DNA of 36,562 nt from Pseudomonadota bacterium (lineage in GTDB: Bacteria > Pseudomonadota > Alphaproteobacteria > Caulobacterales > Caulobacteraceae). The translations under genes were made by a program, and so were the position numbers. The stretch covers positions 1 to 36,562 of the forward strand of contig JAKAZA010000024.1 of NCBI GenBank assembly GCA_021816155.1, read 5' to 3'. The stretch's first letter is position 1; every line of letters begins with the position of its first letter. The notes under the pieces were generated by a model. That model made no database searches. It saw only the letters and a program-made list of their open reading frames with translations, and was not told where the DNA came from. Below, piece after piece: positions 1 to 1,567 of this stretch.

Positions 1-41
1 TCGAGCGCGGCTTGGCGGGCGGGATCGGCGGTCACGGCCAT
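1..41 (-). CDS. N-terminal fragment of a gene leaving the window (MAVTADPARQAAL...), possibly RsmB-like 16S rRNA methyltransferase
   Basis: Minus-strand ATG at 41 opens a frame running off the left edge. The peptide resembles RsmB N-termini, but only 13 residues are visible. Confidence 0.35.
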   Translation of the reverse strand, partial: MAVTADPARQAAL

Positions 42-111
42 GGCCTGCCCGCACTCCCGGCGTCGCGCAAGTCCTGGCCGCGGCGATCGTGCGGGTCTAG
101 AGCGATCGGGC

Positions 112-312
112 ATGGCCGAACCCGATCCACCCGCCGGCGCAGCGCCGGGCAAGCAGCTTTCGCCAGCCGCGCGCCGCGCGCTGGAGGAAGCCGCCGCGCG
201 TCGGGCCGCCGCCCCTCAGGCGCCACTGCCGCCCGAGGAGGGCGGGCCGTCGGGGCCAGAGCCGACCCGCTACGGCGACTGGGAGAGAAATGGCGTCGCG
301 TCCGACTTCTGA
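112..312 (+). CDS. DUF1674 / SDHAF4-like protein (succinate dehydrogenase assembly factor 4 family)
   Basis: C-terminal GPEPTRYGDWERNGVASDF matches the DUF1674 signature. ATG at 112 is in frame with the 40..312 ORF. Confidence 0.85.
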   Translation: MAEPDPPAGAAPGKQLSPAARRALEEAAARRAAAPQAPLPPEEGGPSGPEPTRYGDWERNGVASDF

Positions 313-397: not shown

Positions 398-844
398 ATG
401 AACTATCGGGCGGGTCTGATCGCTTGCGCGCTGGCGCTGATCGGCTGGGGAACGGCGTTCGCCGGTGGGTACTGGGACGCGGGGCCGTCGCCAGCGTCCC
501 CTGCGCCCCAATACGCCGCCGCGCCGCCTTGTGAACAGGCCTGCGCGCCGCCGCCTTGCGGCTGCTGGCGGGACAGCCGTCCGCTCGTCCGCCGCGAAGC
601 GCCACCGCCGGCGCCGGCGGTGGCGCTTCCGGTGGATTTCTTCGACGCCGAGGGCGGCGTCGGCCCCGCGTTTCCCGATTCCGGATACGGGGGCGGCGGC
701 TACGTCGGGATAGGGGCGTTCGCCGCCGCGCAGGGCTTCGCCTCCGCGTCGGTCAGCGAGAACATCGGGGTCAACGTGTCGATCCTGCAGCGCGGCATGC
801 GCAGGCGCTGGATGTCCCACGGCTGCTGTGGCCGTCGCTGGTAG
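398..844 (+). CDS. Small putative secreted Pro/Cys-rich protein of unknown function
   Basis: 148-aa ORF with a signal-peptide-like N-terminus (MNYRAGLIACALALIGWGTAFAGG), then CEQACAPPPCGC and a terminal CC. No family recognised. Confidence 0.6.
   Translation: MNYRAGLIACALALIGWGTAFAGGYWDAGPSPASPAPQYAAAPPCEQACAPPPCGCWRDSRPLVRREAPPPAPAVALPVDFFDAEGGVGPAFPDSGYGGGGYVGIGAFAAAQGFASASVSENIGVNVSILQRGMRRRWMSHGCCGRRW
596..629. repeat. Perfect 34-bp palindrome inside the small secreted-protein ORF
   Basis: GAAGCGCCACCGCCGGC | GCCGGCGGTGGCGCTTC; right arm is the exact reverse complement of the left. Confidence 0.95.
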
Positions 845-847
845 GCT

Positions 848-1567
848 TCAGCCCTTCGCCATTTCCGCGGCGATGGCGAAGGCCGCGGCGCGGGGATCGT
901 CGGCGGCGGTGACGGGCCGGCCGCACACGATGTGGCTCGCGCCCTGGCCGAGCGCGTAGGCCGGTGTCTCAGCGCGAGCCTGGTCGTCGCGCCCCGCCCA
1001 TGCCGGCCGGACGCCGGGCGTCACCACCAGGAAGTTCGGGCCGCCGATCCGGCGCGCCAGCGCCGCCTCGCGCGGGCTGACGATCACGCCATCCGCGCCT
1101 GCCTCGAGCGCCTGGCGCACGCGCCGTTCGACGAGGTTGACCACCGACGTCGCGTAGCCGATCTGAGCGAGGTCCGCGTCGGCCAGGCTGGTCAGAACGG
1201 TCACGCCCAGCACCTTCAGCGGCGCGCCGGCTCGCCCACGCACCGCAGCCGCCAGCACCTGCGGCTCGGCGTGGACGGTCAGGAAGTCGCCGGCGCCGCT
1301 CGCCGCGATCGCCGCGGTCGCCTTCTCCACCGTCGCGCCGATGTCGTGCAGCTTCCAGTCGAGGAACACCTTGCGTCCGGCCCGCTTCAGACTGAGCGCC
1401 GTCTCGGCGCCGCCCATCGCGAGGAGCTGGAGGCCGATCTTGTAGAACGCCACTGCGTCGCCGAGTCGCTCGACGAGGTCCTCGGCCTCGGCGCGGCTTG
1501 CGAGGTCGAGCGCCACGATGAGACGTGGGTCGGCTTTGACGGGACGCGCGGCGACGCCGACGGCCAA
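848..1567 (-). CDS. pyrF: Orotidine 5'-phosphate decarboxylase
   Basis: RLIVALDL, VFLDWKLHDIGATV and VTPGVRP motifs. TTG start with AAAGGAGG upstream. Confidence 0.95.
   Translation of the reverse strand: MAVGVAARPVKADPRLIVALDLASRAEAEDLVERLGDAVAFYKIGLQLLAMGGAETALSLKRAGRKVFLDWKLHDIGATVEKATAAIAASGAGDFLTVHAEPQVLAAAVRGRAGAPLKVLGVTVLTSLADADLAQIGYATSVVNLVERRVRQALEAGADGVIVSPREAALARRIGGPNFLVVTPGVRPAWAGRDDQARAETPAYALGQGASHIVCGRPVTAADDPRAAAFAIAAEMAKG

Follow-up and report, generated by a model that had tools for sequence, protein, structure and literature searches.

A perfect palindrome of 34 bp, located within the gene of a secreted protein in the window (the whole stretch of DNA analysed, 36,562 nucleotides), is probably a lineage-specific mutational scar, left by template switching (quasipalindrome correction). 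The palindrome, GAAGCGCCACCGCCGGCGCCGGCGGTGGCGCTTC, spans bases 596-629 with neither spacer nor mismatch, and translates as EAPPPAPAVALP in the frame 398-844; both its geometry and its peptide are as described in the initial, sequence-only reading. The runner-up among the spacerless palindromes of the window has arms of only 8 bp. The features discussed are reported in Table 1.

Table 1. Position of the palindrome, of its parts and of the surrounding genes within the window
Feature	Position	Strand	Remarks
Perfect spacerless palindrome	596..629	.	17-bp arms; read directly from sequence
Imperfect extension of the palindrome	588..636	.	one bulged C and seven further pairs, one of them G-U
Left arm	596..612	+	in the variable Pro-rich linker; putative derived inverted copy; no counterpart in homologues
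Right arm	613..629	+	encodes A-V-A-L-P, part of the family V-x-L...FF motif; putatively ancestral
Gene of the secreted protein	398..844	+	Gly-rich, low-complexity protein of 148 aa; signal-peptide-like start; no Pfam family
DUF1674 gene	40..312	+	conserved upstream neighbour
pyrF	848..1567	-	conserved convergent downstream neighbour

Pairing continues outward beyond the perfect arms, over a 49-base region, also described as containing one bulge and one mismatch, for which BLAST reports a self-match of 92%; an extension this good has a chance probability of about 0.009. The very stable RNA hairpin proposed in the sequence-only reading is in line with the predicted minimum free energy, which is -47.2 kcal/mol for the 49-mer (588-636) versus -32.9 for the 34-mer, and with a z score of -5.0 for the predicted RNA fold of the region 560-665. 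The hairpin would be located 66 codons into the gene.

ORF 398-844 is a real gene, since homologues with a common architecture occupy the same place in other Caulobacteraceae, adjoining the DUF1674 gene and pyrF/marC. In these homologues a signal-peptide-like start is followed by a variable middle part, rich in Pro, Gln, Tyr and Cys, by a motif resembling E-V-x-L-x-D-S-FF, by GGVGP and finally by a Gly-rich, ASASAR-like tail. The ORF is preceded by a plausible GGAGG ribosome site, and by inspection its start looks like a signal peptide; a Pfam search of its product gave no match. The gene is fast-evolving and of low complexity, and its codon statistics are too odd for a simple gene finder. The contig containing it begins 397 bases before the ORF; elsewhere, contig 28 of genome G023 starts inside the Gly-rich gene and contig 60 of G009 ends just past it. 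Breaks at or near this gene in three genomes suggest that it is hard to assemble. As for the downstream neighbour, pyrF matches at E <= 0.001 were found in only 4 of the 15 other species of the genus, several of which are more than 95% complete, reflecting either search sensitivity or real absence.

The palindrome was searched for in 14 homologues of the gene, as the sequence-only reading had suggested, and was absent from all of them, the longest spacerless arms found anywhere in these genes being 4-8 bp. When the 17-pair score was evaluated at any centre near the motif, the best values were 8-11, against 17 in the window, and about level with those found elsewhere in the same genes. Pairing maintained while the sequence varies, the mark of a conserved regulatory hairpin, was thus seen in none of the 14. 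Homologues retaining the APPPAPA peptide with codons that break the palindrome had been named in advance as evidence against a function; the result goes further, as neither the palindrome nor the peptide is kept. Conservation is limited to the V-x-L...FF motif, whose coding sequence spans the right arm and continues beyond it: the right arm encodes (A)VALP, corresponding to the (E)V-x-L-x of the family, while the left arm falls within the linker, which is widely divergent and unalignable among homologues. Judged against these distant homologues only, the palindrome appears to be a derived character, absent in relatives. When the DNA was searched against 299 genomes of the family, nothing closely homologous to the ORF turned up; the top hits fall on the pyrF portion of the query, and the others are short, weak stretches. 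The palindrome is also a single locus. The search for further copies, likewise proposed earlier, found none within three mismatches in the genome, an exact scan of viral contigs gave no match, and distant blastn comparison against plasmids found none.

Among the four options listed in the sequence-only reading, the inverted-duplication scar is the one that these data support, the sequence being unique, absent in homologues, and composed of a motif-bearing right arm and a variable left one. Starting from a weak inverted repeat in a segment rich in GCG and CCG, the nascent strand may have folded back during replication and been elongated along the adjacent arm, by quasipalindrome correction or a short-range template switch. 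In this way the right arm, which encodes the conserved V-x-L block, would have been copied in inverted orientation into the variable linker immediately upstream of it. Read in frame, the resulting arm gives EAPPPA, a change which a linker that is Pro-rich and of low complexity, in a secreted protein, would tolerate. An old right arm, with the left arm as its inverted copy, is the simplest history, although the direction rests on a short motif. The arms are adjacent and perfect, as in quasipalindrome or template-switch scars, and their imperfect continuation past a one-base bulge would suit a quasipalindrome that was older or longer. A template switch would therefore explain a perfect, unspaced, single-copy, in-frame palindrome with an imperfect fringe, present in one lineage and in the most tolerant part of the protein. 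The event is one that we infer rather than see, because the nearest homologue (L012, with a 77% identical pyrF) is too diverged to reveal the ancestral bases; its direction and the absence of a function are inferred as well.

Chance is the alternative deserving most attention: point mutations alone might have produced the palindrome within an Ala/Pro/Val stretch written in GCG, CCG and GTG codons, to be noticed because many windows were scanned. Under an independent-base model the probability is 2.6e-5 per window, a value which is too low, because it ignores coding structure and GCG and CCG codons pair easily here. In the register of the palindrome, first codon positions pair with one another and second positions with third ones, which makes the Ala and Pro codons GCG and CCG partly self-complementary; accordingly, random permutation of the same 12 codons generated 17-bp arms in 14 of 50,000 trials. 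The fast evolution and low complexity of the gene also favour chance, as does the finding that short-loop inverted repeats in coding sequence match the shuffled expectation, a single outlier in a hydrolase gene aside. Other codon-preserving tests point the opposite way. Among 200,000 synonymous recodings of the peptide no arm exceeded 15, and shuffling all codons of the ORF gave at most 14 in 4,000 trials. Synonymous shuffling of 759 predicted genes of the same genome, corresponding to 700 kb of coding sequence, produced over 60 rounds a mean of 0.10 spacerless arms of at least 14 bp, and never one of at least 15. The outward extension contributes its further small factor, and the gap separating the palindrome from the 8-bp arms of the runner-up is likewise against chance. 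The earlier statement that such an arm is not expected by chance in 36 kb therefore needs amending: the independent-base estimate behind it was too strict, but even codon-preserving models reach 17 only very rarely. Extrapolated to 36 kb, the codon-aware probability would be about 1e-4 per window; such a palindrome would be unlikely in one window taken alone, but possible over a scan of many. As the finding was picked from such a scan, chance retains a real share, and is regarded as an unlikely but serious explanation.

A functional hairpin confined to this lineage, at the mRNA or DNA level, is considered improbable. It could act as a translational pause aiding export, as a transcription pause or attenuator, or as a regulator site, and both the very stable predicted fold and its position within the gene of a secreted protein would suit such roles; however, no homologue has the palindrome, no second copy exists in the genome, and searches for terminators and RNA families were negative. 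The sequence after base 629, CGGTGGATTTCTTC, contains no U-tract, and no terminator match was obtained at the palindrome, so that an intrinsic terminator was rejected. A known structured RNA was discarded as well, since no Rfam family was detected, the one chance match (E 0.28) being far below the gathering score. The absence of a second copy within three mismatches similarly excludes a repeated mobile palindrome (RPE/MITE-like). Dimeric regulator sites are usually shorter than 34 bp of perfect symmetry. The attenuator, pause-site and regulator-site options of the sequence-only reading are therefore left unsupported. An error of assembly or sequencing is very improbable. In its favour, the window corresponds to an entire contig of a metagenome-derived assembly in 188 contigs, the palindrome lies 596 bases from the contig end, and other genomes too have contig breaks close to the Gly-rich gene; against this, the frame continues through the palindrome, linking the signal peptide and the part rich in Cys and Pro to the conserved motif and to the Gly-rich tail, and hairpin chimaeras normally have much longer inverted arms. 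Lastly, it would be highly speculative to regard the palindrome as a new intragenic hairpin, born by template switching in this lineage and co-opted as a co-translational pause aiding export.

The occurrence of inverted repeats was also evaluated in a sample of 776 kb of stretches from the same genome, window included. Spacerless palindromes with arms of at least 12 bp number 4 in coding sequence, the one under study being counted, versus 0.53 expected by synonymous shuffling, a moderate excess. A strong excess of long palindromes in the genome, initially indicated by 7 cases with arms of at least 12 bp versus 0.83 expected from the tail slope, was not retained, because the codon-aware model reduces its coding part to the figures just given; another part is intergenic, and probably consists of terminators. 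Apart from the palindrome, one intragenic inverted repeat reaches arms of 17 bp; this is the hydrolase outlier (L148 17308-17345, contig 58), which has a 4-nt loop and lies in an alpha/beta-hydrolase gene. One of its arms overlies the conserved DAAGWP block; most of 21 relatives have LVLVDAAGWP, versus LVLVDPVGAA here, and the Arg-rich complement lies downstream of the DPVGAA block. Conserved columns are altered in 3 of 5 cases inside the repeat, versus 16 of 122 outside (Fisher p 0.024). The pattern would fit the overwriting of one arm from the other, although this is one isolated case and its statistical support is modest. A weaker candidate for homogenisation, the 13-bp palindrome of an amidohydrolase gene, was compared with a homologue whose protein is 77% identical and was rejected as support, substitution density being 0.19 in the arms versus 0.21 in the rest of the gene. 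Two more repeats were observed. Contig 56 opens exactly on a 31-base inverted repeat with 15-bp arms (L146 1-31), suggesting that the hairpin ended the assembly there. On contig 57 (L147 10047-10084) an intergenic, AT-containing inverted repeat with 17-bp arms, CGGGGAGTTATATACGTGACAACGTATATAACTCCCCG, differs from the other hairpins, which are GC-rich, and is possibly an operator or the end of an element.

Template switching which homogenises the arms of inverted repeats is an established process, also inside genes, where it may change several residues, as in yeast coding genes (PMC8604942); it has been studied in E. coli with lacZ QP reporters (PMC7202029), and its mutations have been related to RNA hairpins (PMC8794818). 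The palindrome resembles these cases (PMC7202029, PMC8604942, PMC8794818) in that short, adjacent repeats are perfected, one arm templating the other, in coding sequence and with changes in neighbouring residues; it differs from them in that the event is deduced from distant homologues rather than from an ancestor-descendant pair. Perfect inverted repeats within protein-coding genes are also known from the mitochondria of Nematomorpha, where template switching is discussed as a possible origin; those palindromes are numerous and reach 284 bp, whereas here a single one of 34 bp is found in one gene (PMC6649704).

Palindromic DNA read in frame inside an ORF is also a feature of the Rickettsia palindromic elements, but these are repeated families inserted in genes, while here one copy, within three mismatches, is present in the genome. 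With intrinsic transcription terminators the palindrome shares a stable GC-rich hairpin; it differs from them by its location in the middle of an ORF and by the lack of a U-tract.

The palindrome is ordinary in kind, and a regulatory function is unsupported. Estimates of chance based on independent bases are misleading for palindromes in Ala/Pro stretches encoded by GCG and CCG. If the template-switch explanation is right, this would be a bacterial case in which a single event wrote a peptide segment from the antisense of the adjoining one, in a gene which tolerates such change.
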